Assembly: GCF_016863535.1 (NCBI RefSeq)
Contig: NZ_BOPB01000010.1
Location: forward strand, 1-64,000
Reading direction: 5' to 3'
DNA: 64,000 nt
Source: Micromonospora lutea
Lineage (GTDB): Bacteria; Actinomycetota; Actinomycetes; Mycobacteriales; Micromonosporaceae
The position numbers and the translations under genes are program-made. A model generated the notes under the pieces. That model was given only the letters and a program-made list of their open reading frames with translations. It ran no database searches and had not been told where the DNA came from. Below, piece after piece: positions 17,380 through 55,195 of this stretch; position 1 is the stretch's first letter, and each line of letters begins with the position of its first letter.

Positions 17380-19557
17380 ATGACAGACGGTGCACGGCCA
17401 GCGACGCGACCGGGGCGGGAGCCCCGGGAGGTGGCGACCCACTGCCCGTACTGTGCACTCCAGTGCGGGATGACCCTGCGCGAGGAGGCCGACTCGGTCA
17501 GCGTGCTACCCCGCGACTTCCCCACCAACCGGGGCGGCCTGTGTCAGAAGGGCTGGACCTCGACGGAGTTGCTCGGCCACCCGGACCGGTTGACCAGTCC
17601 CCTGCTGCGCGACCCGGCCAGCGGCGAGCTGCGCCCGGCCAGTTGGGACGCCGCGCTGGACCGGATCACCAGCGGCATTCGCGACGTACAGGAGCAGCAC
17701 GGCCGCGACGCGGTCGCCGTCTTCGGTGGCGGCGGGCTCACCAACGAAAAGGCGTACGCGCTGGGCCGGTTCGCGCGGGTGGCGCTGGGCACCCGGCACA
17801 TCGACTACAACGGACGGTTCTGCATGTCGTCCGCCGCCGCCGCCGGTATGCGGGCCTTCGGGGTGGACCGGGGGCTGCCGTTCCCGCTGTCCGACCTGGG
17901 GCGGGCGGACACCCTGCTGCTGGTCGGCGCGAACCCGGCGGAGACCATGCCGCCGCTGATGCGCTGGCTGACCGAGCAACGGGAGCGGGGCGGCAAGCTG
18001 ATCGTGGTCGACCCACGGGTCACCGCCACCGCCCGGCAGGCCGACCTGCACCTGCAGCCGTTGCCCGGCACCGACCTGGCGGTGGCCAACGCGCTGCTGC
18101 ACGTCGCCCTGACCGAGGGCTACGTCGACGGCGAGTACATCGCCACCCGTACCACCGGATTCACCGCCGTGAAACGCACCGTGGCGGGGTGGTGGCCGGC
18201 CCGCGCCGAAGCGCTCTCCGGCGTGCCCGTGGCCGACCTGGCGGAGACCGCGCGAGCCCTCGGCACCGCCGGGCGGGCGATCATCCTCACCGCACGCGGC
18301 GCCGAACAGCACGCCAAGGGCGTCGACACCGTCACCGGCTTCGTCAACCTCGCCCTCGCGCTCGGCCTGCCCGGCCGTCCCGGCTCCGGATACGGCTGCC
18401 TCACCGGGCAGGGCAACGGGCAGGGCGGCCGGGAGCACGGGCAGAAGGCCGACCAGCTTCCCGGGTACCGCCGGATCGACGATCTGGAGGCCCGAGCCCA
18501 CGTGGCGCGGGTCTGGGGGGTGCCCGCCGACGAGCTGCCCGGGCCGGGGGTGCCGGCGTACCAGTTGCTGGACTCGCTGGGCACGGAGGCAGGGCCACGG
18601 GCGCTGCTGGTGTTCGGCTCGAACCCGGTGGTCTCCGCGCCCCGCGCCGCCCGGGTCGAGGGTCGCCTGCGCGACCTGGACCTGCTGGTCGTCGCCGATT
18701 TCCTGCTCTCCGAGACGGCCGCCCTGGCCGACGTGGTGCTGCCCACCGCCCAGTGGGCCGAGGAGGACGGCACGATGACCAACCTGGAGGGACGGGTGCT
18801 CCGCCGCCGGGCGCTGCGCCCACCCCCGGCGGATGTCCGCACCGACCTGGCGATCCTCGCCGCCCTCACCACCCGCCTCCAAACGCAAGGAAGGGCCCCC
18901 TCTTACCGTCTCGTGCATAGCAAGGGCCCCCTCCTAACAGCTGGCACGCCCTCGGACGAGGCGGACGCAGCCGACCCGCACGCGGTCTTCGCCGAGCTGC
19001 GCCGCGCCTCGGCCGGGGGCATCGCCGACTACGCCGGGATCAGCTGGGACCGGATCGACGCCACCGACGGCGTCTTCTGGCCGTGCCCCGACGACGAAGG
19101 CCCCGATTCCCCTCGACTCTTCACCGACCGCTTCGCCACCGCTGACGGGTTGGCCCGGTTCCACCCGGTGGAGCACCGGCCGGCGGCCGAGGAGGTGTGC
19201 GCCGACTATCCGCTGCACTTCACCACCGGCCGGGTGCTCGCCCAGTACCAGTCCGGCACCCAGACCCGCCGGGTGGCGGCGCTGCGCCGGGCGGCTCCCG
19301 AGGCGTTCGTGGAGCTGCATCCGGACCTCGCCGAACGGCTCGGCGTCGCCGACGGCGAGCCGGTACGCGTGCGCTCGCGGCGTGGCGAGTTCCAGGCACC
19401 GGCCCGGCTGAGCCCCGGCATCCGGCCGGACACCGTCTTCGCGCCCTTCCACTGGGGTGGCCGGGCGCGGGCCAACTCGGTCACCAACGACGCCGTGGAC
19501 CCAATCTCCGGCATGCCGGAGTTCAAGATCTGCGCGGTACGGGTGGAGAAGGCATGA
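17380..19557 (+). CDS. nasA: Assimilatory nitrate reductase catalytic subunit
   Basis: Molybdopterin enzyme reducing nitrate to nitrite in the cytoplasm. The 725-aa product has an N-terminal [4Fe-4S] site (Cys22, Cys25, Cys29, Cys55), then the molybdopterin oxidoreductase domain (NGRFCMSSAAAAG with the likely Mo-ligand Cys near residue 148) and a C-terminal dinucleotide-binding domain (LHFTTGRVLAQYQSGTQTRR onward). There is no Tat signal, which fits the assimilatory type. Codons around 18885-18940 hold a 56-nt repeat read in frame, adding about 19-23 residues in a linker. The stop overlaps the next gene by 4 bp. Confidence 0.95.
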   Translation: MTDGARPATRPGREPREVATHCPYCALQCGMTLREEADSVSVLPRDFPTNRGGLCQKGWTSTELLGHPDRLTSPLLRDPASGELRPASWDAALDRITSGIRDVQEQHGRDAVAVFGGGGLTNEKAYALGRFARVALGTRHIDYNGRFCMSSAAAAGMRAFGVDRGLPFPLSDLGRADTLLLVGANPAETMPPLMRWLTEQRERGGKLIVVDPRVTATARQADLHLQPLPGTDLAVANALLHVALTEGYVDGEYIATRTTGFTAVKRTVAGWWPARAEALSGVPVADLAETARALGTAGRAIILTARGAEQHAKGVDTVTGFVNLALALGLPGRPGSGYGCLTGQGNGQGGREHGQKADQLPGYRRIDDLEARAHVARVWGVPADELPGPGVPAYQLLDSLGTEAGPRALLVFGSNPVVSAPRAARVEGRLRDLDLLVVADFLLSETAALADVVLPTAQWAEEDGTMTNLEGRVLRRRALRPPPADVRTDLAILAALTTRLQTQGRAPSYRLVHSKGPLLTAGTPSDEADAADPHAVFAELRRASAGGIADYAGISWDRIDATDGVFWPCPDDEGPDSPRLFTDRFATADGLARFHPVEHRPAAEEVCADYPLHFTTGRVLAQYQSGTQTRRVAALRRAAPEAFVELHPDLAERLGVADGEPVRVRSRRGEFQAPARLSPGIRPDTVFAPFHWGGRARANSVTNDAVDPISGMPEFKICAVRVEKA
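18885..18940 (+). repeat. 56-nt dispersed repeat, copy A, inside nasA
   Basis: Begins GCAAGGAAGGGCCCCC and ends AGGGCCCCCTCCTAACAG, with GGGCCC palindromic cores in each half. It aligns without gaps to 43285-43340 (44 of 56 positions identical by eye). Here it is translated in frame, giving a low-complexity insertion (QGRAPSYRLVHSKGPLLTAG) between the molybdopterin and C-terminal domains. It is probably a non-autonomous repeat family of the genome. Confidence 0.8.
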
Positions 19558-40220: not shown

Positions 40221-42146
<1,926 letters not shown>

Positions 42147-42156
<10 letters not shown>

Positions 42157-43298
42157 GAGTCGACCTCCGTCGATGGCTGGAAGGTGTTGCCGACAGCGGT
42201 CGCAGCCACGACGCCCGGCAGGTTGGCGAACCGCTCCGGTCGGAACGGCGCGAGCAGCGGCGGAGAACTGCCGCCTCCACAGATCAGATCGGTGATCAGG
42301 TCTGCGGTGACCGGGGTGAGCACGATGCCGTGCCGATGGTGACCGGCGGCGACCAGCACGTCCGGGTGCCCCGGCAACGGGCCCAACATCGGGGCGTTGT
42401 CCGGCGTGCCCGGACGCAGCCCTGCCGAGGTCTCCACCAGGTCGTACTCGGCGATCTCGGGCAGCAGGTCGACGGCGGCCCGGAGCAGTCGCAGCACCGC
42501 TCCGGCGGAGACATCCAGGTCGGAGCGCTCCTCGACGGTCGCGCCGACGACCACCTCGCCGCTGTGCCGCGGCACCAGGTAGACCTGCTCGCCGTCGGCG
42601 TACCCCCGGATCACGTGCCGAAAGCCTGGCGGCGCGCCATCGGGCGCACGCAGCCGCAGCACCTGCCCCTTCACCGGACGGACCGGCAGGCCGGTCAGTG
42701 CCGCGACCCCGCAACCGGCGGCGACCACCGTCACGCCGGCGGTGACGTCGGACAGTCGGCGCACCGGCTCGGTGACCAGCACCGCTCCGGCCCGCTCCGC
42801 CGCCAGCCGCAGCGCCGGCACCAGCCGGCGCGGATCGACCTGATGGTCGGTGGCGGCGAGTGCGCCGCCACGCACCCGGGGTGCCAGCGCCGGCTCACGC
42901 TCGCGTAGCTGTGACGGGCGCAGCGGCGTCACCGGTAACCCCAGACCCTGCTGGTACGCCCAGAGCCGGCGTGCCTCCGCGAGGTCGTCGGCGGTGAGCC
43001 CGACCACCAGCGTGCCCTCGGTCCGGTAGCCGATGTCGGTACCGGCCGCCTCGGTCAGTTCGACGGCGAACTCGGGCCAGCGGCCGGCCGACTCGGTGAG
43101 CAGACCGGTCAGCTCCTGCTCGCCGAAGTACGCCTCGGCGACCGGCGCCAGCATTCCGGCGGCCACGTGCGAGGCACCTGACCCGGGCGTCGGGTCGTGC
43201 ACGACCACCCGCAACCCGCGGGCGGCACACCGCCAGGCGATCGCCAGCCCTACCGGACCCGCCCCCACCACCGCCACATCCGGAGCAAGGAAGGGCAC
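42147..43298 (-). CDS. thiO: Glycine oxidase ThiO
   Basis: FAD enzyme oxidising glycine to the imine used by ThiG. The 383-aa product opens with the FAD fold VAVVGAGPVGLAIAWRCAARG and ends with the DAO-family MLGPLPGHPDVLVAAGHHRHG. The GTG at 43298 is chosen because it gives the usual short lead before the FAD motif. This start codon sits within a 56-nt dispersed repeat, so the first codons (VPFLA) and upstream region come from the repeat. Confidence 0.94.
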
Positions 43299-43340
43299 CT
43301 TGTTAACGCCTCCGGTAGAGGAAGGGCCCCTTCCTAACAC
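43285..43340. repeat. 56-nt dispersed repeat, copy B, thiE/thiO junction
   Basis: Begins GCAAGGAAGGGCACCTTG and ends GAAGGGCCCCTTCCTAACAC, same length as copy A at 18885-18940 (44 of 56 positions identical by eye). On the minus strand it holds the thiE stop (TAG, 43336-43334) and the thiO start (GTG, 43298). GGGCCC-centred palindromes could fold in RNA. Confidence 0.82.
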
Positions 43341-43960
43341 GAAAGCCCCCGGAGCAGCTCCTCGGCGGCGCGGGCGGGATCGGCGGCTGCGGAGAGCGCA
43401 CCGACCACCGCCACCCCGTACGCCCCGGCGGCCCGCAACGGCGGCACGTCCGCCGCCGTCACCCCACCGATGGCGATCACCGGCACGGCGACCGCCCCGG
43501 CCACCGCCCGTACGCCGGCCACACCGATCGGCGGCGGCAGCCCGTCCTTGGTGGTGGTGGCCCGGCACGGCCCCACGCCCAGGTAGCTCGCCCCGGCGGT
43601 GACCGCCGCGAGCGCGGTTGCCGGTTCCCGCGCGGTGGCACCCAGCACGGCAGCCGGGCCGAGCACCTGCCGGGCCGCCGCCACCGGCAGGTCGTCCGCA
43701 CCCACGTGACCGCCGGCGGCACCGGTGGCCAGCGCCACGTGCAGGCGGTCGTTGACCAGGCAGGGCACCTCGTACGGCGCGCAGAGCGCCAACACCTCTC
43801 GGGCCAGCTCGTACGCCTGCCGGTCGGTCGCGGTGTCCTCGACGCGGACCTGCACCACCAGCTGGGTGCGGGCCACCGGCAGTACGGCACGCAGCACGGC
43901 GAGCGGGTCCCGCCCGGGCCGGGTGTCGGTGATCAGATGCAGTCGTCCCAGGGACGGCAC
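43334..43960 (-). CDS. thiE: Thiamine-phosphate synthase ThiE
   Basis: Joins HMP-PP and thiazole phosphate. The 208-aa barrel opens HLITDTRPGRDPL and has NDRLHVALATGAAGGHVGADDLP, the substrate segment GVGPCRATTTKDG and the phosphate-binding AIGGVTAADV near residue 170. The GTG at 43960 has GGGAGGAG 7 nt upstream, at the 3' end of the TPP riboswitch. First gene of the thi operon. Its stop codon lies in the dispersed repeat. Confidence 0.96.
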   Translation of the reverse strand: MPSLGRLHLITDTRPGRDPLAVLRAVLPVARTQLVVQVRVEDTATDRQAYELAREVLALCAPYEVPCLVNDRLHVALATGAAGGHVGADDLPVAAARQVLGPAAVLGATAREPATALAAVTAGASYLGVGPCRATTTKDGLPPPIGVAGVRAVAGAVAVPVIAIGGVTAADVPPLRAAGAYGVAVVGALSAAADPARAAEELLRGLSC

Positions 43961-43969
43961 GGCAACACT

Positions 43970-44058
43970 CCTCCCTGCGCCGGCATTACCCGGATCAGGT
44001 TCGACGGTCGGGGGCTCACAGCCCCCCTCTCAGCCCGGTGCACCGGGCTCCCGTGGGT
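43970..44058 (-). promoter_or_regulatory. TPP riboswitch (THI-box)
   Basis: Read on the minus strand, the leader has the conserved CTGAGA bulge, a GC-rich P3 region with GGGGGCTGTGAGCCCCC and the invariant ACCTGATCCGGGTAATGCCG segment, ending in GCAGGGAGG. Its 3' end touches the ribosome-binding site of thiE (43968-43975), so ligand-bound RNA probably masks translation of thiE, with polar effects on the operon. Sequence match to the TPP class is very clear. Confidence 0.97.
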
Positions 44059-44059
44059 T

Positions 44060-44410
44060 CGTTGGGTGTCACCGTACGACGTTTCGCCGGCTCCGCCAAG
44101 CCCGTCCCACACTGCCGGCCGGGGCGAAGACAGCCCTGTCATGCCGGCTCGCGACACCCTGCCGGGCCGAGTCACAGCGTTTCGGTGATCGAAAAATGGC
44201 ACCGATATGCAGTGACTCGCACCAATAAGGTAACGGCTCGTTACTGAAACGTTACAAGGGTTCGCCTTGCTCGAACTTAATTCACGAACACAAATTGAAT
44301 GATCGGATCGGCTTGTCGCCACCCAGACCTCGCTCAGGTATGGGCGCTCGGACCGACGGAGTGACCACCGCCGTCCACTCCGACCCGTCCCATCGACAGA
44401 GGAGATCTTC
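44060..44410 (+). promoter_or_regulatory. Upstream region of the first ThuA-dehydrogenase gene
   Basis: An AT-richer promoter region. GTAACG (44230-44235) and CGTTAC (44239-44244) form an inverted repeat, followed by TGAAACGTTACA (44245-44256), resembling the AAnCGnTT core of LacI-family operators. The block TTACTGAAACGTTA (44241-44254), 9 nt, GCCTTGC (44264-44270) and AAATTG (44292-44297) recurs upstream of the paralogue (49176-49233). No gene is seen in the stretch. Confidence 0.55.
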
Positions 44411-47400
44411 GTGCCCCGACACCGTCGGCGGCGAGCCCCGCTCGCCCCATTGACCGTGGCGCTACTCGCCCTCTTACTCGTCCTGACCGCCGCACCGGCC
44501 CCGATCGGCGGCCCCGCCGCTGCCCAGGCCGCCAGGACCGCCGTCCCCGTCGCCGCGGCGGCGGAGCCGTACTCCGTCCTGGTCTTCTCCAAGACCGCCG
44601 GATTCCGACACGACTCGATCCCGGCCGGCATCAGTGCGATCCAGCAGCTCGGCACGGCGAACGGGTTCACCGTCACCACCACCGAGGACGGTGCCGCCTT
44701 CACCGACACCAACCTCGCCAGGTTCAAGGCGGTCATCTGGTTGTCGACCACCGGTGACGTGCTCAACGCCAGCCAGCAGGCGGCGTTCGAGCGCTACATC
44801 CGTGCCGGTGGCGGATACGTCGGCGTGCACGCCTCGTCCGACACCGAGTACGACTGGGCCTGGTACGGCCAGTTGGTCGGTGCCTACTTCAACAGCCACC
44901 CGGCCAACCAGACGGCCACCGTGAAGGTCGAGGACACCACCCACGAGTCGACCCGGCACCTGCCGGACCGGTGGTCCCGTTTCGACGAGTGGTACAACTT
45001 CCGCACCAACCCCCGCGCCCGTCAGGTGCAGGTGCTGGCCTCGCTCGACGAACGCAGCTACAGCCCGGGCAGCGGGGCGATGGGCCACGACCACCCGATC
45101 GCCTGGTGCCAGAACTTCGACGGTGGCCGGTCCTGGTACACCGGCGGCGGACACACCCAGGAGTCCTTCACCAACGCCGAGTTCCGGCAGCACCTGCTCG
45201 GTGGCATCCAGACCGCCGCCGGGGTGGTACACGCCGACTGTGGCGCCGGACGGGCCGCCAGCTTCGAGAAGGTGACGCTGGACAGCAACACCAGCAACCC
45301 GATGGAGTTGGACATCGCGCCCGACGGCCGGGTCTTCTACATCGAGCGCGACGGCCGGGTGCAGATCATCAAGCCGGACACCGGCCAGACGGTCACCGCG
45401 CTGCGGCTGAGCGTCTTCGCGGGCAACGAGGACGGGCTGCTCGGCATCCGGCTCGACCCCAACTTCGCCAGCAACGGGTGGATATGGCTCTACTACGCCC
45501 CGAGCGCGGGCGGCTCCCGCAACTACCTGTCCCGGTTCACCGTCACCGGTGACACGATCAGCACGTCGAGCGAGCGGGTGGTCCTGGAGGTGCCCACGCA
45601 GCGCAACACCTGCTGCCACATGGGCGGGACGATGACCTTCGACTCGGCCGGCAACCTCTACCTGGCCACCGGGGACAACACCAACCCCTTCGAGTCCAGC
45701 GGGTACAGCCCGTTGGACGAGCGCTCCGGGCGGGCGGACTACGACTCGCAGCGCACCGCCGGCAACACCAACGACCTGCGTGGGAAGGTGCTCCGGATCC
45801 GGCCGCAGGCCGACGGAACGTACACCATCCCGAGCGGGAACCTGTTCGCCCCGGGCACCGCGCGGACCCGGCCGGAGATCTACGCGATGGGCCTGCGCAA
45901 CCCGTTCCGGATCGGCATCGACCCGGTCACCAACGTGCTCTACGTCGCCGACTACGGCCCGGACGCCACCACCGCCAATGCCAACCGGGGCCCGGAGGGC
46001 CTGGTCGAGTGGAACATCGTCGACCGGCCCGGCAACTTCGGCTGGCCGTACTGCCACGGCAACAACCAGGCGTACAACGACTACCAGTTCCCGTCCGGCC
46101 CGAGCGGGGCGAAGTTCGACTGCGCCGCGCCGGTGAACAACTCCCCCAACAACACCGGCCTGACCAACCTGCCGGCGGCCATCCCGGCCACAGTCGACTA
46201 CGGCTACGGCGGCAACAGCCGCTTCCCGGAGATCGGCGGCGGTGGAGCGCCCATGGCCGGTCCGGTCTACCGGTACGACCCGAACATCTCCTCCAGTCGC
46301 CAGTGGCCGGCGTACTTCGACGGCAAGTCGATCTTCGGCGAGTGGAACCAGTCGCGGATGTACACCATGCAGGTCAGCCGGGACGGCAAGACACTCGTCG
46401 ACATCAACCGGATCCTCGACCAGATGACCTTCGTCCGGCCGATGGACATGGAGTTCGGCCCCGACGGCGCGTTGTACCTGATCGAGTGGGGCAGCGGCTT
46501 CGGCGGCGACAACGACAACTCCGGGGTCTACCGGATCGACTACACCGCCGGTGCCCGCGCCCCGGTCGCGGTCGCCTCGGCGAACCCGACCTCCGGAGCG
46601 CCACCGCTCGCCGTCACCTTCTCCAGCGCCGGCTCCCGCGACCCCGACGGCGGAGCGCTCACCTACGCCTGGACGTTCGGCGACGGCGGCACCTCCACCC
46701 AGGCCAACCCGACCCACACGTACGCCCGGTCCGGCAGCTACACGGCACAGCTCCGGGTCACCAACCCGGCGGGACGGACCGCGGTCGCGAACGTGCCGAT
46801 CACCGTCGGCAACACCGCACCGACCGTCACCATCGAGTTCCCGCCGGACGGCGGCTTCTTCGCCTGGGGTGACCAGGTCGCCTACACCATCAAGGTGACC
46901 GACCCGGAGGACGGCACGATCGACTGCGACGACGTCGAACTCCAGGTCCTCCTCGGCCACGACGAGCACGCCCACCCGCTGGAACGGCACACCGGCTGCA
47001 CCGGCACGGTGCAGACCCAACTCGCCGACGGCCACGGAGCGGACGCCAACGTCTTCACCGTGCTGGAGGCGACCTACACCGACCGGGGCGGAGCCGACGG
47101 GGCCGAGCCGCAGACCGGCCGGGCGTTGAAGATCCTTCAGCCCAAGCGCAAGGAGGCCGAGTACTTCTCGGCCACCGGCCGGGTGGCGGGCGCCACCGGA
47201 GGTGGCACCGCCGGGGTGCAGCGAGAGACCACCGGGGACACCGCCGGCGGCGGGCAGAACATCAGCTTCATCGAGGACGGCGACTGGTGGTCGGTCGATC
47301 CGGCCAGCCTGACCGGCATCACCTCGGTCCGGTTCCGGGTCGCCTCGGCCACGTCCGGTGGCCGGATCGAGGTCCGCGCCGGAGCCGCCGACGGGCCACT

Positions 47401-49084
47401 GATCACCACCGCCACCGTGGCCGGCACCGGGGGGTGGCAGACGTACACCGACGTCACCGCGCAGATACCGAACGGCGCCGCCGCAGAGGGCAAGCTCTTC
47501 TTCGTCGCCCGCGACCCGAACCGGGGCTCCGGCACCCTGTTCAACGTCAACTGGATGGACTTCGTCGGCCCCGGGGTGAGCGGCAACGCCCCACCGACGG
47601 TCACCGCCACGGCCACCCCGACCAGCGGGACCGCACCACTGGCCGTGACCTTCACCGGTACGGCTACTGACCCGGACGGGGACACGCCCCTGACGTACGC
47701 CTGGGACTTCGGTGACGGTGCCACCGCGACCACGCTCAACGCCACCCACACGTACACCACGCCGGGCAGCTACACCGCGACCCTGACGGTCACCGACAGT
47801 CGGGGTGCCCGGGGGCAGGCCAGCGTGCAGATCCGGGTCGACGGGGCGGACAACCCCTGCCAGGCCGAGCAGGGGCCGCAGCGGTCCGACGAGTTCACCG
47901 GCAGCGCGTTGGATCGCCAGCGGTGGACGAGCGTGGTACGGGAGGACCAGTCGTACTCGGTCTCCGAGGGTTCGCTGCGACTGCTCACCTCGGCGGGTGA
48001 CCTGTACGGCACCCGCAACGACGCCACCAACCTGGTGCTCCAGCCCGCGCCCGGCGGGGCCTGGCAGGCGACCACCCGGGTCACCCTGGCGGCCCGGGCC
48101 GACTACCAGCAGGCCGGTCTGATCCTCTACGGCGACGACGACAACTACGCCAAGCTGGACCTGCTCTACGGTGGCAGCCGCCGGGTGGAGTTCATCAGGG
48201 AGAGCGCCGGGACGCCGCGCAACGAGAGCACGGATTCCACGGCAGCTCCCACCGGTGACACCATCCATCTGCGACTGACCAGCGACGGGACGAATCTGAC
48301 CGCCGCCTACTCGACCGACGGGCAGACCTTCACCCCGGTCGGCCGGTCCGCCACGCTGGCCGGGATCACCAACCCCCGGATCGGCCTCTTCGCCCTCAAC
48401 GGCGGCACCACCGCGCCGGTGGTGAACGCCGCGTTCGACTGGTTCCGGGTCACCCCGGAGGTCACCACGGCAGTCGTCGCACCGTCGGACGAGTTCACCG
48501 GCGGCAGCCTGGAGAAGTGCCGGTGGAACGCCATCGTGCGGGAGGATTCGACCCGGTACCGGGTGACCGACGGCTCGTTGCGCATCGACGTGCCGAACGG
48601 TGACATCTACGGCACCGGCAACACCGGGCCGACGAACTTCATCCTGCAGAACAGCCCGGCCGGGAACTGGACGATGCAGACCCGGGTCGACGGCAGTCTG
48701 TTCAACGAGCAGTACCAGCAGGCGGGTCTGCTGGTGTACGCCGACGACGACAACTACCTGAAGTTCGACTACGTGACGGACAACGCGGCCGGTCAGACGG
48801 TCTCGCGGCGGATCGAGTTCCGCAGCGAGATCGGCGGAACGGTGCAAAGTACGCAGCCGCAGGCGACCGGCCTGACCCAGGGGATCTGGCACCTGCGGGT
48901 GTCGCGTAGCGGAAGCACCTTCACCGCCGCGTACTCGGCCGACGGCACGAGTTGGACGACCCTGGGGACGTTGACGAGCACCGCGGTCGGGACGACTCCG
49001 AAGGTGGGTCTGTTCACTCTCGGTGGCAACCAGACCGCCTCGAAGACGGCCGCGTTCGACTACTTCCGGCTCACGCCCGGGTAG
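44411..49084 (+). CDS. Secreted ThuA-like / sugar dehydrogenase-like modular protein 1
   Basis: A 1557-aa exported protein. Order: signal peptide (about 1-43), ThuA-like domain (54-270; VFSKTAGFRHDSIP, HPIAWCQ), GSDH/PQQ-type six-bladed propeller (283-710; NPMELDIAPDGRVFYIERDGR, AMGLRNPFRIGID), PKD (717-802), Ig-like stretch (803-912), CBM6-like domain (914-1054; NWMDFVG end), second PKD (1060-1145), then two concanavalin/DUF1349-like domains (1157-1353, 1357-1557). GTG 44411 has GGAG upstream. Likely binds and oxidises extracellular sugars or keto-sugars; substrate unknown. Tandem paralogue follows. Confidence 0.9.
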   Translation: MPRHRRRRAPLAPLTVALLALLLVLTAAPAPIGGPAAAQAARTAVPVAAAAEPYSVLVFSKTAGFRHDSIPAGISAIQQLGTANGFTVTTTEDGAAFTDTNLARFKAVIWLSTTGDVLNASQQAAFERYIRAGGGYVGVHASSDTEYDWAWYGQLVGAYFNSHPANQTATVKVEDTTHESTRHLPDRWSRFDEWYNFRTNPRARQVQVLASLDERSYSPGSGAMGHDHPIAWCQNFDGGRSWYTGGGHTQESFTNAEFRQHLLGGIQTAAGVVHADCGAGRAASFEKVTLDSNTSNPMELDIAPDGRVFYIERDGRVQIIKPDTGQTVTALRLSVFAGNEDGLLGIRLDPNFASNGWIWLYYAPSAGGSRNYLSRFTVTGDTISTSSERVVLEVPTQRNTCCHMGGTMTFDSAGNLYLATGDNTNPFESSGYSPLDERSGRADYDSQRTAGNTNDLRGKVLRIRPQADGTYTIPSGNLFAPGTARTRPEIYAMGLRNPFRIGIDPVTNVLYVADYGPDATTANANRGPEGLVEWNIVDRPGNFGWPYCHGNNQAYNDYQFPSGPSGAKFDCAAPVNNSPNNTGLTNLPAAIPATVDYGYGGNSRFPEIGGGGAPMAGPVYRYDPNISSSRQWPAYFDGKSIFGEWNQSRMYTMQVSRDGKTLVDINRILDQMTFVRPMDMEFGPDGALYLIEWGSGFGGDNDNSGVYRIDYTAGARAPVAVASANPTSGAPPLAVTFSSAGSRDPDGGALTYAWTFGDGGTSTQANPTHTYARSGSYTAQLRVTNPAGRTAVANVPITVGNTAPTVTIEFPPDGGFFAWGDQVAYTIKVTDPEDGTIDCDDVELQVLLGHDEHAHPLERHTGCTGTVQTQLADGHGADANVFTVLEATYTDRGGADGAEPQTGRALKILQPKRKEAEYFSATGRVAGATGGGTAGVQRETTGDTAGGGQNISFIEDGDWWSVDPASLTGITSVRFRVASATSGGRIEVRAGAADGPLITTATVAGTGGWQTYTDVTAQIPNGAAAEGKLFFVARDPNRGSGTLFNVNWMDFVGPGVSGNAPPTVTATATPTSGTAPLAVTFTGTATDPDGDTPLTYAWDFGDGATATTLNATHTYTTPGSYTATLTVTDSRGARGQASVQIRVDGADNPCQAEQGPQRSDEFTGSALDRQRWTSVVREDQSYSVSEGSLRLLTSAGDLYGTRNDATNLVLQPAPGGAWQATTRVTLAARADYQQAGLILYGDDDNYAKLDLLYGGSRRVEFIRESAGTPRNESTDSTAAPTGDTIHLRLTSDGTNLTAAYSTDGQTFTPVGRSATLAGITNPRIGLFALNGGTTAPVVNAAFDWFRVTPEVTTAVVAPSDEFTGGSLEKCRWNAIVREDSTRYRVTDGSLRIDVPNGDIYGTGNTGPTNFILQNSPAGNWTMQTRVDGSLFNEQYQQAGLLVYADDDNYLKFDYVTDNAAGQTVSRRIEFRSEIGGTVQSTQPQATGLTQGIWHLRVSRSGSTFTAAYSADGTSWTTLGTLTSTAVGTTPKVGLFTLGGNQTASKTAAFDYFRLTPG

Positions 49085-49360
49085 TTGGTCGACATCGCCG
49101 GCCCGTACCTCCGCCGGAGGTGCGGGCCGGCGCTCGCGGCGCTTTGGACGGACTGTACGGGAATGTCGCCCGTATTTACTGAAACGTTATACATCGAAGC
49201 CTTGCCATAAATCGTTTTAACCGAAATAAATTGTTTAGCGACTCGACATAATGCTGGGACGGACACCATTCGGCACGGTGGCCGGACCAGCTCCACCTGG
49301 GACGGTCTTCGGCGAGCCGGCCCCCGCGACTCACGTCCAACAAGGACAGAGGAGACCGGA
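49085..49360 (+). promoter_or_regulatory. Intergenic region between the two ThuA paralogues
   Basis: Holds the terminator of the first gene and, from 49176, a repeat of the upstream block: TTACTGAAACGTTA (49176-49189), 9 nt, GCCTTGC (49199-49205), AAATTG (49228-49233). The spacing equals that upstream of the first gene, so both paralogues probably answer to the same regulator and have separate promoters. Confidence 0.55.
49097..49131 (+). terminator. Terminator hairpin after ThuA paralogue 1
   Basis: A 16-bp stem (49097-49112 / 49116-49131) with one wobble and a 3-nt GCC loop lies 13 bp after the stop. It separates the two paralogues into individual transcription units. Confidence 0.78.
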
Positions 49361-52300
49361 GTGCTCCGAACACCCCGTGCCCGCGTACCCATCACCGCCG
49401 CGCTACTCACCCTCGGCCTCGCCGCGACCGGCCTTGTCGGCGTTCCTGCCGCCCAGGCCGCGCCGAGCACCGAGACCATGGCGCAGCGCGCACCCGTCCA
49501 GCAGGTCCAGCCCGCAGCCGCGGCCGACGACTTCGCGGTCCTGGTCTTCTCCAAGACCGCCGGTTTCCGCCACGACTCCATCCCCACCGGCATCGCCACC
49601 ATCCAGCAACTCGGTGCGGAGCACGGTTTCACCGTCGACACCACCGAGGACGGCGCCGCCTTCACCGATGCCAACCTCGCCCGCTACCAGGCGGTGATCT
49701 GGCTCTCCACCACCGGTGACGTGCTCAACACCGACCAGCAGGCCGCGTTCGAACGCTACATCCAGGCCGGTGGCGGCTACGCCGGCATCCACGCCGCCTC
49801 CGACACCGAGTACAACTGGGCCTGGTACGGCGAACTGGTCGGTGCGTACTTCAACAGCCACCCGGCCAACCAGACGGCCACCGTCAAGGTCGAGGATCCG
49901 GCGCACCCCTCCACCGCCCACCTGCCGGAACGCTGGTCCCGGTTCGACGAGTGGTACAACTACCGCACCAACCCGCGTGGCGCGGTGCACGTGCTGGCCA
50001 CCCTCGACGAGAACAGCTACAACCCGGGTTCGGGCGCGATGGGGCATGACCACCCGATCGCCTGGTGCCAGGACTACGACGGCGGTCGCGCCTGGTACAC
50101 CGGCGGCGGCCACACCCACGAGTCGTACGCCGAACCGAACTTCCGCACCCATCTGCTCGGCGGCATCCGCACCGCAGCCGGGAGCGAGGGAGCCGACTGT
50201 GGGGCGTCGCTGACCGCCAGCTTCGAGAAGGTGACGCTGGACAGCAACACCAGCAACCCGATGGAGCTGGACATCGCCCCCGACGGCCGGGTCTTCTACA
50301 TCGAGCGCGACGGCCGGGTCCAGATCATCAAACCGGACACCGGCAACACCGTCACCGCCATCGACCTCGACGTCTTCACCGGCAACGAGGACGGCCTGAT
50401 CGGCATCCGGCTCGACCCGAACTTCGCCACCAACAACTGGGTGTACCTCTACTACGCCCCGAACGACGGGATCGCGCGTAACCTGCTGTCCCGGTTCACC
50501 GTCTCCGGCGACACGATCGACCCGGCGAGCGAGCAGCAGGTGCTGCGGGTCGACACGCAGCGCAACACCTGCTGCCACGCGGGCGGGACGATGGTCTTCG
50601 ACTCGGCCGGCAACCTCTACCTGGCCACCGGAGACAACACCAATCCGTTCTCGTCGGACGCGTACACCCCGATCGACGAGCGGCCCGGCCGCGCCGACTA
50701 CGACGCGCAGCGCAGCTCCGGCAACACCAACGACCTGCGCGGCAAGGTGATCCGGATCCACCCGGAGGACGACGGGACGTACACCATCCCGGAGGGCAAC
50801 CTGTTCCCGCCGGGCACCGAGAAGACCCGTCCTGAGATCTACGCGATGGGCTTCCGGAACCCGTTCCGGATCGGCATCGACCTCGCCACGAACGTGCTCT
50901 ACGTGGCCGACTACGGGCCGGACGCCAACTCCGCCAACCCGAACCGGGGCCCGGAGGGCCTGGTCGAGTGGAACATCGTCGACCGGCCCGGCAACTTCGG
51001 CTGGCCGTACTGCCACGGCGCCAACAAGGCGTACAACGACTACCAGTTCCCGTCCGGGCCGAGCGGCGCCAAGTTCGACTGCGCGAACCTGGTCAACGAC
51101 TCGCCCAACAACACCGGCCTGACCAACCTGCCGCCGGCCATCGCGGCCACCGTCGACTACGGCTACGCCGCCAACCCGCTCTTCCCCGAGATCGGTGGCG
51201 GCGGCGCGCCGATGGGCGGCCCGGTCTACCGGTACGACGCCGACCTCGACTCCAACCGCAAGTGGCCGGCGTACTTCGACGGCAAGGCGCTGCTCGGTGA
51301 GTGGAACCAGTCGCGGATGTACACCATGCAGGTCACCTCGGACGGCAAGTCCCTGGTGGACATCAACCGGCTGCTGGACGGGATGAGCTTCATCCGGCCG
51401 ATGGACTTCGAGTTCGGCCCCGACGGCGCGCTCTACATGATCGAGTGGGGCAGCGGCTTCGGCGGCAACAACGACAACTCCGGCGTCTACCGGATCGACT
51501 ACATCGCCGGTGACCGGGCCCCGATCGCGGTGGCCAGCGCCGACCCCACCTCCGGGCCGGCACCGCTGACCGTCAGCTTCTCCAGCGCCGGGTCCCGTGA
51601 CCCGGACGGCGGTGCGCTCACCTACGCCTGGACGTTCGGCGACGGCGACACCTCTGACGAGGCCAACCCCACCCACACGTACGCCTCGGCGGGCAACTAC
51701 AACGCCCAGCTCACTGTGACCAACCCCAAGGGGCGCACCGCGGTGGCGAACGTGCCGGTCACGGTCGGCAACACCGTACCGACGGTCACCATCGAGTTCC
51801 CGCCGGACGGCGGCTTCTTCGACTGGGGTGACCAGGTCAAATACACCATCAAGGTGACCGACCCGGAGGACGGCGAGATCGACTGCGACGACGTCGAACT
51901 CCAGGTCCTCCTCGGCCACGACGAACACGCCCACCCGCTGGAGCAGCACACCGGCTGCGAGGGCGTGGTGCAGACCCAGCTCGCCGCCGGGCACGGCGCC
52001 GAGGCGAACGTGTTCACCGTGCTGGAGGCGACCTACACCGACAAGGGCGGCTCCGGTGACGCCAACCCGCTCACCGGTCGGGCCCTGGAGATCCTCCAGC
52101 CCAAGCGCAAGCAGGCCGAGTACTACTCCAACACCGGCCGGCTGGCGGACGGCGTCGGCAGCGGTGACCCGGGAGTGGGCAAGGAAGCCAGCGGCGACAG
52201 CGCCGGCGGTGGTGACAACATCGGCTTCATCGAGGACGGCGACTGGTGGTCGATCGAGCCGGCGAGCCTGACCGGCATCGAGTCGATCCGGTTCCGGGTG

Positions 52301-55195
52301 GCCTCGGCCAACTCCGGCGGCCGACTTGAGGTCCGCGCCGGTGCCGCCGACGGTCCGCTGGTCACCTCCGTCGTCGTACCGGGCACCGGAGACTGGCAGG
52401 CGTACACCGACGTCACCGCGGAGGTGCCGGCGGAGGCCGACTCGAACGGCAAGCTGTTCTTCGTCGCCCGTGACCCGGCCGGCGGCACGGCGAGCCTGTT
52501 CAACGTCAACTGGATCGACTTCCTCGGCAAGGGCGTGACCGACAACGCGCCGCCGGTCGTCACCGCCACCGCCACGCCGACCACCGGCACCGCGCCGCTC
52601 ACCGTCGCGTTCAGCGGTACGGCCACCGACCCCGAGGGCGACACCCCGCTGACGTACGAGTGGGACTTCGGTGACGGTGACACGGCCGACACGCTGAACG
52701 CCGAGCACACCTACGCCGCGCCCGGCAACTTCACCGCCACCCTGACGGTGACCGACAGTCGGGGTGCCCGGTCGTACGCCACCGTGCCCGTCCGGGTCGA
52801 ATCGCCGAACACCTCCTGCCTCGGGGCACGTTCGGACAACTTCGACGGCGACACGCTCAACCGCGACCGGTGGAGCAGCGTGGTGCGGGAGAACCAGCTC
52901 CTGTCCGTCTCCGACGGCGCGCTGCGACTTCCCACCGAGGCCGGTGACCTCTACGGCAGCCGCAACGACGCGACAAACCTGGTGCTCCAGCCCGCGCCGA
53001 CGGGTGCCTGGCAGGCGACCACGAAGGTCACTGTCCCGGTGACGGCCACCTACCAGCAGGCCGGTCTGATCGTCTACGGCGACGACGACAACTACGCCAA
53101 GGTCGACCTGCTCTACAACGGCAGCCGGCGGGTGGAGTTCCTCCGGGAGACTGCCGGCACACCGCGCAACGACAGTGACGACAACGTCGCCGCGCCCGAG
53201 GGTGACACCGTCTACCTGCGGATCAGCAGCGACGGCACCAACCTGACCGCGGAGATGTCGGCCGACGGGCAGACCTACAGCCCGGTCGGGCGCTCCGCCG
53301 AGCTGGCCGGCATCGAGAACCCGCGGATCGGCCTGTTCGCCCTCAACGGTGGCACCGACGCCCCCGTCGTGGATGCCGCGTTCGACTGGTTCCAGGTGGT
53401 GCCGGACGAGCCGGCCGGGCCGGTCGACCCGTCCGACGACTTCGACGGAATCTCGCTGGACAAGTGCCGGTGGAACGCGATCCTGCGGGAGGACCCGAGC
53501 GCCTACCGGGTCAGCGGTGGGAAGCTCTACGTCGACGTGCCCAACGGTGACATCTACGGCACCAACAACACCGATCCGACGAACTTCATCCTGCAGAACG
53601 CCCCGACCGGCGACTGGACGATGGAAACCAAGATCGACGGCAGTCTGCTGGACGAGCAGTACCAGCAGGCGGGTCTGATCGTGTACGGCGACGACGACAA
53701 CTACCTCAAGTTCGACTTCGTCGTGGACAACCAGGCCGGCCAGCCGGTGTCCCGGCGGATCGAGTTCCGCAGCGAGATCGACGGATCGATCCAGGATCCC
53801 CAGCCGGGGGCGGAGAACCTGACCTCGTCCGAGTGGTACCTGCGGGTGTCGCGCGCCGGTGACACCTTCACCGCGTCGTACTCGGCGGACGGCACCACCT
53901 GGACGGCGTTGACCGAACTGGTCAACGCGGCCGTGGGGGCGACCCCGAAGGTGGGCGTGTTCACCCTCAGCGGCAACCAGACCGCCTCGAAGGTGGCGTC
54001 GTTCGACTACTTCCGGTTCTCCGCGGAGGAGGTGCCGAGCGACACCGTGGCGCCGGTGACCACCGCCGAGGTGTCCGGTACGCCGGTCGACGGCTGGCAC
54101 GCCGGTCCGGTGACCGTCACGCTCTCCGCCACCGATGCCGACGGCGGCAGCGGGGTGGCCCGCACCGAGTACCAGCTCGGTGAGGCCACCGAGTGGACCA
54201 CCTACACCGACCCGGTGCAGGTGACCGGGGACGGCGAACACGAGCTGCGGTTCCGTTCCGTCGACGAGGCCGGCAACGTGGAGGAGACCAAGACGGTAAC
54301 CGTCAAGATCGACACCACGGCACCGGTCAGCACCGCGACGTTCGCTCCGGCGAACGACGAGGGTTGGCATGACGGCGCCATCCCGGTGGTGCTCACCTCG
54401 ACCGATGCCGGTTCCGGGGTGGAGCTGCTGGAATGGTCGCTCGACGGCGGTGACTGGACGCCGTACACCGACCCGGTGGAGATCAGCGGTGACGGCCTCC
54501 ACGAGTTGCTGTACCGAGCCACCGACAAGCTCGGCCACGTGGAGACGTTGAAGTCGGCGGTGGTACGCATCGACGGCACGAAGCCGACCCTGCTCGTCTC
54601 CGGCATCGCCGACGGCCAGCTCTACGGCGACAGCCAGGACGTGCGGGTCTCCTGGCAGGCGGTCGACCCGACCTCCGGCATCGCCACCGTGGTCGGCACG
54701 CTCAACGGCCGGCCGTACGCCAGCGGCACGCTTCAGGCGATGTACGAGCTGCCGTTGGGCCTGCACGAGCTGACCGTGACCGCGACCGACAAGGCGGGTA
54801 ACGCCACCACCACGTCGGTCCGGTTCTTCGTCACCACCTCGTTCCGGGACATGCAGAACCTGCTGGACCGGTTCAAGGTGACCGGACGCCTGTCGAACAA
54901 GGCGTACGACCAGTTGTCGAAGCGGCTGGGCAACGCCCGTACGGCCGAGGCGGCTGGCAACGACAAGCGGGCGATCAACCAGCTCACCGCGTTCCGGACG
55001 CTGGCCGGCGACGCCACGCTGGTCGGCGAGGCGGAGATCCGGGACACCCTGGTCCGGGACGCCGACGCCATGATCACTCGGCTCGGCGGCACGGCCAGCA
55101 CGGCGGGCGTCAAGGCTAACGACGGCAAGTCCGTCAAGGGCGCCGGTCGCCTCGGCGAGGATCCCACCCGGCTCGCCCCCGGTCGTCGCCTGTGA
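49361..55195 (+). CDS. Secreted ThuA-like / sugar dehydrogenase-like modular protein 2
   Basis: A 1944-aa exported paralogue with the same order of domains: signal peptide, ThuA-like (57-270), GSDH propeller (285-716), PKD, Ig-like, CBM6-like (914-1053), PKD, two DUF1349-like domains (1153-1346, 1356-1555). It has an extra C-terminus: two OmpL47-like Ig repeats (about 1560-1653, 1655-1740; DGWHAGPVTVTLSATDADG and EGWHDGAIPVVLTSTDAGS), a third Ig-like stretch and a final helical FIMAH-like domain (about 1826-1896). GTG 49361 follows an AGGAG-containing leader. Probably cell-wall or matrix associated. Confidence 0.9.
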   Translation: MLRTPRARVPITAALLTLGLAATGLVGVPAAQAAPSTETMAQRAPVQQVQPAAAADDFAVLVFSKTAGFRHDSIPTGIATIQQLGAEHGFTVDTTEDGAAFTDANLARYQAVIWLSTTGDVLNTDQQAAFERYIQAGGGYAGIHAASDTEYNWAWYGELVGAYFNSHPANQTATVKVEDPAHPSTAHLPERWSRFDEWYNYRTNPRGAVHVLATLDENSYNPGSGAMGHDHPIAWCQDYDGGRAWYTGGGHTHESYAEPNFRTHLLGGIRTAAGSEGADCGASLTASFEKVTLDSNTSNPMELDIAPDGRVFYIERDGRVQIIKPDTGNTVTAIDLDVFTGNEDGLIGIRLDPNFATNNWVYLYYAPNDGIARNLLSRFTVSGDTIDPASEQQVLRVDTQRNTCCHAGGTMVFDSAGNLYLATGDNTNPFSSDAYTPIDERPGRADYDAQRSSGNTNDLRGKVIRIHPEDDGTYTIPEGNLFPPGTEKTRPEIYAMGFRNPFRIGIDLATNVLYVADYGPDANSANPNRGPEGLVEWNIVDRPGNFGWPYCHGANKAYNDYQFPSGPSGAKFDCANLVNDSPNNTGLTNLPPAIAATVDYGYAANPLFPEIGGGGAPMGGPVYRYDADLDSNRKWPAYFDGKALLGEWNQSRMYTMQVTSDGKSLVDINRLLDGMSFIRPMDFEFGPDGALYMIEWGSGFGGNNDNSGVYRIDYIAGDRAPIAVASADPTSGPAPLTVSFSSAGSRDPDGGALTYAWTFGDGDTSDEANPTHTYASAGNYNAQLTVTNPKGRTAVANVPVTVGNTVPTVTIEFPPDGGFFDWGDQVKYTIKVTDPEDGEIDCDDVELQVLLGHDEHAHPLEQHTGCEGVVQTQLAAGHGAEANVFTVLEATYTDKGGSGDANPLTGRALEILQPKRKQAEYYSNTGRLADGVGSGDPGVGKEASGDSAGGGDNIGFIEDGDWWSIEPASLTGIESIRFRVASANSGGRLEVRAGAADGPLVTSVVVPGTGDWQAYTDVTAEVPAEADSNGKLFFVARDPAGGTASLFNVNWIDFLGKGVTDNAPPVVTATATPTTGTAPLTVAFSGTATDPEGDTPLTYEWDFGDGDTADTLNAEHTYAAPGNFTATLTVTDSRGARSYATVPVRVESPNTSCLGARSDNFDGDTLNRDRWSSVVRENQLLSVSDGALRLPTEAGDLYGSRNDATNLVLQPAPTGAWQATTKVTVPVTATYQQAGLIVYGDDDNYAKVDLLYNGSRRVEFLRETAGTPRNDSDDNVAAPEGDTVYLRISSDGTNLTAEMSADGQTYSPVGRSAELAGIENPRIGLFALNGGTDAPVVDAAFDWFQVVPDEPAGPVDPSDDFDGISLDKCRWNAILREDPSAYRVSGGKLYVDVPNGDIYGTNNTDPTNFILQNAPTGDWTMETKIDGSLLDEQYQQAGLIVYGDDDNYLKFDFVVDNQAGQPVSRRIEFRSEIDGSIQDPQPGAENLTSSEWYLRVSRAGDTFTASYSADGTTWTALTELVNAAVGATPKVGVFTLSGNQTASKVASFDYFRFSAEEVPSDTVAPVTTAEVSGTPVDGWHAGPVTVTLSATDADGGSGVARTEYQLGEATEWTTYTDPVQVTGDGEHELRFRSVDEAGNVEETKTVTVKIDTTAPVSTATFAPANDEGWHDGAIPVVLTSTDAGSGVELLEWSLDGGDWTPYTDPVEISGDGLHELLYRATDKLGHVETLKSAVVRIDGTKPTLLVSGIADGQLYGDSQDVRVSWQAVDPTSGIATVVGTLNGRPYASGTLQAMYELPLGLHELTVTATDKAGNATTTSVRFFVTTSFRDMQNLLDRFKVTGRLSNKAYDQLSKRLGNARTAEAAGNDKRAINQLTAFRTLAGDATLVGEAEIRDTLVRDADAMITRLGGTASTAGVKANDGKSVKGAGRLGEDPTRLAPGRRL

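Follow-up and report, generated by a model that had tools for sequence, protein, structure and literature searches.

The question raised by this locus is why a core metabolic enzyme should carry a short palindromic repeat that is translated in frame. The DNA analysed (hereafter the window) is the first 64,000 nucleotides (nt) of contig NZ_BOPB01000010.1 of Micromonospora lutea, and the gene is nasA (Table 1). A reading made from the letters of the window, the sequence-only reading, had found a second copy of the nasA repeat elsewhere in the window and had placed its emphasis on the spread of small repeats into enzymes. That emphasis did not hold: the genome contains at least 113 copies of the element, of which five lie within genes and 68 have their 5′ end no more than 8 nt from a stop codon. 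The explanation we favor, at a probability of about 60%, is that the family is a 3′-end RNA hairpin element whose copies owe their uniformity within a genome to a trans-acting agent; the nasA copy would then be a stray intragenic member.

The second copy in the window is real. A repeat search aligned positions 18885-18939 with 43285-43339 (family D19) without gaps and with 44/55 positions identical (80%), the by-eye count of the sequence-only reading having been 44/56. A 20-nt half-module pattern, allowing up to three mismatches, matched the window exactly four times, i.e., at the two modules of each of the two copies, and 0.00 matches were expected from 100 dinucleotide shuffles. As had been claimed, the nasA copy leaves the 725-amino acid open reading frame (ORF) open; it is translated as QGRAPSYRLVHSKGPLLT. 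The gene name needs some qualification in that the best NCBIfam model is the assimilatory nitrate reductase NasC, matched at 776 bits, which is under its cut-off of 1100. Copy 2 lies between called genes: 7 nt separate its 5′ end from that of a minus-strand gene, and at its 3′ end it shares 5 nt with the 3′ end of the following gene.

The complete M. lutea assembly (G000; 6.09 Mb in 62 contigs) yielded 139 matches to the half-site pattern and none to the reversed-pattern control. A family sequence model built from 29 copies gave 133 matches, 113 of which were kept; this is a lower bound, since only 150 of 1560 first-look candidates were scored. The 20 dropped matches had E values above 5e-6, and 15 of them are the opposite strand of accepted copies; the other five (C2:59332, C5:230370, C6:55414, and a pair at C16:111431-111480) are possibly decayed members of the family. 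Two opposite-strand overlapping pairs are among the 113 (C11:94107/94145 and C29:137189/137221), and 110 of the 113 copies were used in the analyses of mutual information, target-site duplication, and position 12. Elements in opposite orientation also occur as pairs 0.4-0.7 kb apart, at C38:31192/31596 (L117) and C13:223565/224257 (L087).

The family unit is ~54 nt long and consists of two quasi-palindromic modules around a variable center, with the spacing of the modules constant in 108/113 copies. Its consensus is about GTAAGGAAGGGCMCCTTNTTAACGCCTNNNGTAKAGGAAGGGSCCCTTCCTAAC, the ends of which are often lengthened to GGTGT...ACACC, and these terminal GGTGT and ACACC sequences are more weakly conserved than the core. 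The terminal inverted repeats are imperfect, with a consensus of GGTGTWAGGAAGGG (GGTGTWAGG) at both ends. By minimum free energy (MFE), the two modules pair as RNA into a single long hairpin in 111/113 copies, and the description of the element as GC-palindromic was correct; the mean MFE is -26.2 kcal/mol vs -15.4 for mononucleotide shuffles. Four copies were also folded as DNA and compared with dinucleotide shuffles, giving z scores from -1.0 for the nasA copy, which is diverged and folds poorly, to -4.2; copy 2 scored -2.3.

The placement of the family is strikingly one-sided. The five in-gene copies reside in nasA, in genes for two DsbD-like membrane proteins and an AAA ATPase, and in a methyltransferase gene with a THUMP-like domain; the remaining 108 are intergenic or overlap a gene end. 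A gene 3′ end lies on the 5′ side of the element in 78/113 copies, and all 68 copies with a stop codon within 8 nt are among these 78. Uniform placement in the same gaps predicts 26.6±2.9 such copies, with a maximum of 40 over 10,000 trials. Thirty of the 68 stop codons are at exactly +3 nt, 18 use the TAA of the element itself (G-TAA-GG), six are a TGA overlapping a GAAAGG variant, and 14 are at 2, 4, 6, 7, 8 or -3 nt. On the 3′ side of the element, gene ends were found within 8 nt in only 8/67 cases. Copies outside genes are found between convergent (48), tandem (49), and divergent (11) gene pairs; the convergent context is enriched (48/108 elements vs 214/1211 baseline gene pairs), and within it the stop codon is near on the 5′ side in 42/48 copies and on the 3′ side in 7/48. 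The same preference is evident in 400-kb samples of two other genomes, where, among elements downstream of a gene 3′ end, 9/10 (G107) and 13/16 (G215) have a stop codon within 8 nt. In other genera, 30 high-scoring copies from seven genomes were placed: a gene 3′ end is on the 5′ side of 23, and for 18 of these 23 the distance is within 8 nt.

Because placement is one-sided and near nucleotide-precise at the stop codon, and because the core and the predicted hairpin are kept, we favor a 3′-end RNA element over the alternatives considered below. A hairpin directly behind the terminating ribosome would end or protect the mRNA, and the effect may be on the transcript end, its stability, or its translation. 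The element would be usable from both sides, which would explain its excess between convergent genes. A trans-acting agent, whether a copying or converting enzyme or a binding partner, would keep the copies within each genome alike, and a lineage losing the agent would then lose the family.

The architecture of the element suggests another function. Two palindromes 31 bp apart, or about three helical turns, could be a DNA-binding double operator for a nucleoid or topology protein, parked where it is least harmful; gyrase-binding bacterial interspersed mosaic elements (BIMEs) are a comparable case of protein-binding palindromes. A spacing that stays constant despite the variable center, the palindromic nature of each individual module, and the excess between convergent genes are all in keeping with this idea, and the genome-wide loss described below for one relative is what would be expected on losing one binding protein. 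However, a double operator leaves both the nucleotide-level placement and the one-sided orientation to the stop codon unexplained, and no binding protein was identified; we therefore think it improbable.

At least one half-site match was present in 96 of 300 sampled Micromonosporaceae genomes, and the search for the repeat in this and related genomes that the sequence-only reading had proposed was positive well beyond the at least 113 copies in M. lutea. Among 106 genomes of Micromonospora itself, 32 have at least 20 matches, five have 6-19, and 69 have 0-5, the range within this one genus being 0 to 298. Eight of 22 named genomes have 102-342 matches: Micromonospora sp. CP22 (104 half-site matches), NBS 11-29, and PLK6-60, M. 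zingiberis, M. mirobrigensis, M. echinofusca, Catellatospora bangladeshensis, and Plantactinospora alkalitolerans. Three have 1-6, and 11 have none, the latter including Salinispora vitiensis, M. saelicesensis, and P. endophytica. In a sample of the class, comprising 391 genomes beyond three of Micromonospora, 17 had one match each, with one mismatch; single matches occur for the control pattern too. In the genomes sampled, the family is thus confined to Micromonosporaceae and is patchy there.

Patchiness extends to close relatives. The NasA protein of G191 is ~95% identical to that of M. lutea outside the linker, and G191 and M. lutea are 80% identical at fourfold sites, but the entire G191 genome contains one half-site match, and the element was found at none of the 17 M. 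lutea sites that were located there (722 kb). A first pass had located 18 sites, but own48, the right flank of which is displaced, fails a stricter rule; two of the 17 (own108 and own109) are one overlapping pair. Judged by eye, the stop codon is at the same codon in 9/11 G191 sites, and in two of these nine G191 has TGA or TAG where the M. lutea element supplies TAA. By the same comparison, the native TGA has been lost at own55, lengthening the M. lutea protein by about six residues, and the gene ends differ at own51. Six G191 sites hold merely 5-18 nt, and a different GC hairpin appears by eye to occupy the same spot at own4 and own70. In a NasA tree, from which three rows were omitted as likely duplicates, G191 is placed beside M. 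lutea and CP22; the rest of the group for which counts were made (G107, G283, and G215) is element-rich, and all five of these tested relatives of G191 keep the element. Wholesale loss of the family in G191 is the simplest reading of this single-gene tree. No replacement was apparent, as the sample of G191 gene ends contains no comparable enriched 9-mer family.

One site deserves separate mention. At L009 (G000 C2:253366), a 52-nt stretch of G191 aligns by eye along the whole element, with low identity; it seems to encode the start of the next gene, and the M. lutea copy reads on as the N-terminus of that gene. Either coding constraint has preserved the decayed remains of an old copy in G191, or the stretch there resembled the element beforehand. 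In addition, the motif CGATCTTGC occurs 16, 22, and 11 times in the G191, G107, and G215 samples, respectively, partly behind stop codons, and GTTGATCATG occurs nine times in G191, twice in G215, and not at all in the G107 sample; both are possibly further gene-end repeat families.

Two other relatives retain much of the M. lutea complement: the element is present at 10/13 located sites in G215 and, by score, at 6/8 in G107, where a seventh is degenerate. Considering only those shared sites where the element was recognized, identity over the 30 core positions is 0.98 with G215 (300 positions) and 0.96 with G107 (210 positions), compared with 0.74 and 0.76, respectively, at fourfold sites. The 14 variable positions are 50-55% identical, the level between paralogues being 46%. 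Orthologous copies are nevertheless closer to one another than to random M. lutea copies (mean rank 0.26, z -3.4), which indicates some vertical memory. Dialects are also apparent: among 110 M. lutea copies, 60 have A and 49 have C at position 12, but 21/22 G215 copies have C there, and other genera, from which 4-5 high-scoring copies were compared per genome, carry element centers of their own. Overall, this looks like concerted change combined with constraint on the recognized core.

Several observations weigh against the explanation we favor. All gene ends were taken from a purpose-made codon-usage caller that used no annotation. In 30/113 copies it is the 5′ end of a gene, not the 3′ end, that lies on the 5′ side of the element, and a 3′-end function therefore cannot be universal. 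A T-run (TTTT within 20 nt) follows the hairpin in 0/113 copies in the sense and 1/113 in the antisense direction, so the element is not a classical intrinsic terminator; no compensatory base changes or covariation between the arms were seen, and the RNA structure is to that extent unproven. The sites of four G107 elements were located in G215, which has an element at just one of them. At shared sites, identity is lower at the variable positions (0.50 for G215) than at fourfold sites (0.74), and some shared elements differ in stop offset; plain vertical constraint fits these two findings less well than turnover or re-insertion does. Among 110 copies, no register stands out as a target-site duplication (best z 3.2, with six observed and 1.8 expected), although such duplications may have been lost with age. 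Finally, neither of the candidate agents examined, Y1 transposase and reverse transcriptase, follows the element.

In the main rival explanation, the element is a selfish non-autonomous transposon, similar to a miniature inverted-repeat transposable element (MITE) or REPIN, and its enzyme targets DNA or RNA at stop codons; the position would then reflect target choice, and the family would decay once the enzyme was gone. The imperfect terminal inverted repeats are as expected for such an element, as are the patchy presence within one genus and the divergence of variable positions and stop offsets at shared sites. The five in-gene copies are read in four different ways (two at sense offset 0, one each at 1 and 2, and one antisense), and some G191 sites have short gaps (5, 8, 8, and 14 nt), which also suit insertion. 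However, the lack of a target-site duplication counts against this rival too, and Y1 transposases are found in 7/34 element-rich vs 7/31 element-poor genomes (p=1.00; M. lutea has one Y1_Tnp). A transposase of the Y1 or RAYT (REP-associated tyrosine transposase) type was thus rejected as the driver, its presence being unrelated to element abundance. Retron-like copying by a reverse transcriptase is likewise unsupported (13/23 rich vs 8/22 poor genomes, p=0.24), and ten element-rich genomes have no such enzyme. Furthermore, most locatable M. lutea sites are common to G215 and G107, so many copies look old, and their core letters are conserved. The 800-nt flanks of the copies revealed no common parent element: the 79 flank match pairs comprise 56 in which a further element copy lies in the flank, 19 in which one piece of DNA flanks neighboring copies, and four other matches. 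We consider a selfish origin rather unlikely, and retain the 3′-end element as the favored explanation.

Two of those four other pairs are weak (66% and 71%), and two are one 163-nt segment, 98.8% identical, that adjoins the elements at C11:3313 (L078) and C38:31192 (L117). It appears by eye to have its own inverted ends and is possibly a separate, recent small mobile element. An integron attC-like site was considered for the repeat, by consensus only, and dropped.

We now return to nasA. The insert is between the Molybdopterin domain (residues 70-498) and the Molydop_binding domain (612-719), and residues 504-526 have a pLDDT below 50 in a structure model whose mean is 82.4; it is predicted to fill a disordered inter-domain linker. 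Only 3/113 family copies are open in the nasA frame because the core holds a TAA. Copy 1 reads TAC where 106/113 copies have the last A of that in-frame TAA, and all seven same-orientation nasA copies examined are stop-free, with TAC or TAT; the plain explanation is selection for a translatable enzyme. The same insert is found in the same place in G107, G310, G283, G243, G134, and G249, and reversed in G306, but is absent from the close relatives G191, CP22, and G215. Two of 80 named nasA loci match the family model, those of M. zingiberis and M. mirobrigensis (by inferred names, G107 and G134). The reversed copy requires at least two events or one inversion, and either one old insertion was lost many times or several insertions occurred at one tolerant spot. 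This G306 copy (L036) also has, by eye, an 18-nt perfect terminal inverted repeat that runs into the flank (CCAGGTGCAAGGAAGGGC) and is longer than those of other copies.

The sequence-only reading had suggested that the nasA residues are extra. In an alignment of 34 selected nasA loci (A2), they are so relative to other families, in that all 15 rows from outside Micromonosporaceae have a short linker without the insert, but they are not unique to this strain. Thus, the stretch was not seen in distant genera without the repeat, nor was the element found nowhere else, the two outcomes that had been named in advance as contrary to an in-frame repeat. Other Micromonospora have unrelated long inserts at the linker, which is therefore a length-variable region.

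It might be argued that the insert is an adaptive peptide module, selected for a role in the enzyme: 7/7 same-orientation copies are stop-free in a frame that is open in just 3/113 of the family, and several species have it at the same site. However, an open frame requires no peptide benefit, and the insert is disordered in the structure model, reversed with a different center in G306, and missing from close relatives; the remaining four in-gene copies are in different frames or on the opposite strand. We find an adaptive role very hard to credit. The sober reading is a tolerated loop insertion, which the enzyme would accept because the copy is in a disordered inter-domain linker and lacks an in-frame stop codon; most likely, the copy has no role in nitrate reduction.

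Repeats at gene ends have precedents. The mycobacterial interspersed repetitive units (MIRUs) are actinobacterial repeats at stop/start junctions, but they are longer and tied to operon stop-start overlaps. Neisseria DNA uptake sequences form inverted pairs behind genes and have lineage dialects via a trans-acting receptor, but are far shorter and more numerous. Both likenesses are at the level of description. The closest kind is the dimer of repetitive extragenic palindromic sequences (REPs): our element works like a REP dimer without being filed as one because the end tag and RAYT fail here. As described in PMC3733652, GTAG and CGTC REPs and REP dimers are short, high-copy palindromes found mostly downstream of coding regions, where the neighboring genes are co-directional or convergent. 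The TAG at the end of a GTAG REP often serves as the stop codon, CGTC REPs are without a dedicated transposase, and some REP dimers are intragenic, encoding 20-30 residues that may be located in flexible parts of the protein; that paper does not contain the words Micromonospora, Salinispora, actino-, Frankia, Streptomyces, or Mycobacterium. Like REPs and BIMEs, the present element is a short, high-copy palindrome with a predicted hairpin in 111/113 copies, is outside called genes in 108/113, and is found downstream of coding regions (78/113), between tandem (49) or convergent (48) genes. Unlike GTAG REPs, it has GTAG at the 5′ end in 0/113 and CTAC near the 3′ end in 1/113 copies (GTAG is internal in 50/113), and a single stop-codon offset dominates (30/78 at exactly +3). 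CGTC or its complement occurs anywhere in just 9/113 copies, unlike in CGTC REPs, and there is no Y1 association as for REPs with a RAYT. REPs are known from many bacteria, whereas this element was found only in Micromonosporaceae among the genomes sampled.

Escherichia coli REPs within 15 nt of a stop codon are reported in the relevant part of PMC12306157 to down-regulate translation; 446/4,072 predicted REPs (~11%) are so placed, an earlier study having given 260/496. Our element resembles these in having a palindromic hairpin close behind the stop codon, but here 68/113 copies are within 8 nt, and a similar effect on translation would be by analogy. Rickettsia palindromic elements (RPEs), as far as the extracts of PMC10969869 and PMC3733652 go, are ~150 bp and frequently in-gene. 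They share with the nasA copy a palindromic repeat translated in frame within a metabolic gene; the M. lutea unit, however, is ~54 nt and rarely in genes, where in-frame insertion is a side effect. A listing-level look at the open-access literature, a scope that excludes subscription papers and preprints, found no description of the repeat. In the passages available from three Micromonospora genome papers (PMC5765111, PMC8990736, and PMC4392142), "palindromic" means CRISPR; PMC4392142 counts 27 "interspersed repeats" but gives no sequence.

Table 1. Coordinates of nasA and of the two repeat copies in the window.
Feature	Position	Strand	Basis
nasA (name from the sequence-only reading), assimilatory nitrate reductase-like catalytic subunit, 725 aa	17380..19557	+	ORF and domain matches
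Repeat copy 1, in frame in nasA	18885..18938	+	Pattern, repeat and model matches
Copy 1, left quasi-palindromic module	18888..18907	+	Half-module pattern
Copy 1, right quasi-palindromic module, 31 nt past left	18919..18938	+	Half-module pattern
Repeat copy 2, between called genes	43285..43338	+	Repeat and model matches
Copy 2, left module	43288..43307	+	Half-module pattern
Copy 2, right module	43319..43338	+	Half-module pattern

Other features of the window are distinct from the element. An Rfam scan at gathering score had no match at the element; its sole match was a TPP riboswitch (RF00059, 66.1 bits) at 43955-44064 on the minus strand, ~600 nt from copy 2. Long direct repeats ~4.95 kb apart and mostly 78-84% identical (families D1-D4, D6, D7, D10, and others) extend over 44551-54034, which looks like a large region duplicated in tandem. 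Within positions 40256-40449, there is a 30-nt inverted repeat (I10) with 93% complementarity, as well as a GCGTGGGCACGGTCGGCC unit present in three direct copies of 33 nt (D16).

If the favored explanation is true, a family of antibiotic-producing actinomycetes bears a genome-wide hairpin mark at gene ends that is positioned from the stop codon with nearly single-nucleotide precision, and this would provide a natural experiment on the effects of 3′ hairpins in termination, mRNA stability, and translation. A bolder form of it, which we put forward tentatively and think doubtful as it stands, is that the element represents the cis part of a trans-acting system new to science. It would be a gene-end mark used family-wide in Micromonosporaceae, written at stop codons in numbers from tens to a hundred or more per genome; a dedicated agent, either a copying enzyme or a reader protein, would keep it uniform as a species dialect, and loss of the agent would erase it from the whole genome, as in G191. 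The pair of M. lutea and G191, with at least about 110 copies in one and a single half-site match (and no copy in 722 kb) in the other, could expose the postulated maintaining agent by gene content. As to the question posed by nasA, an apparent in-frame enzyme insertion can be incidental to an element that is normally housed just behind the stop codon.

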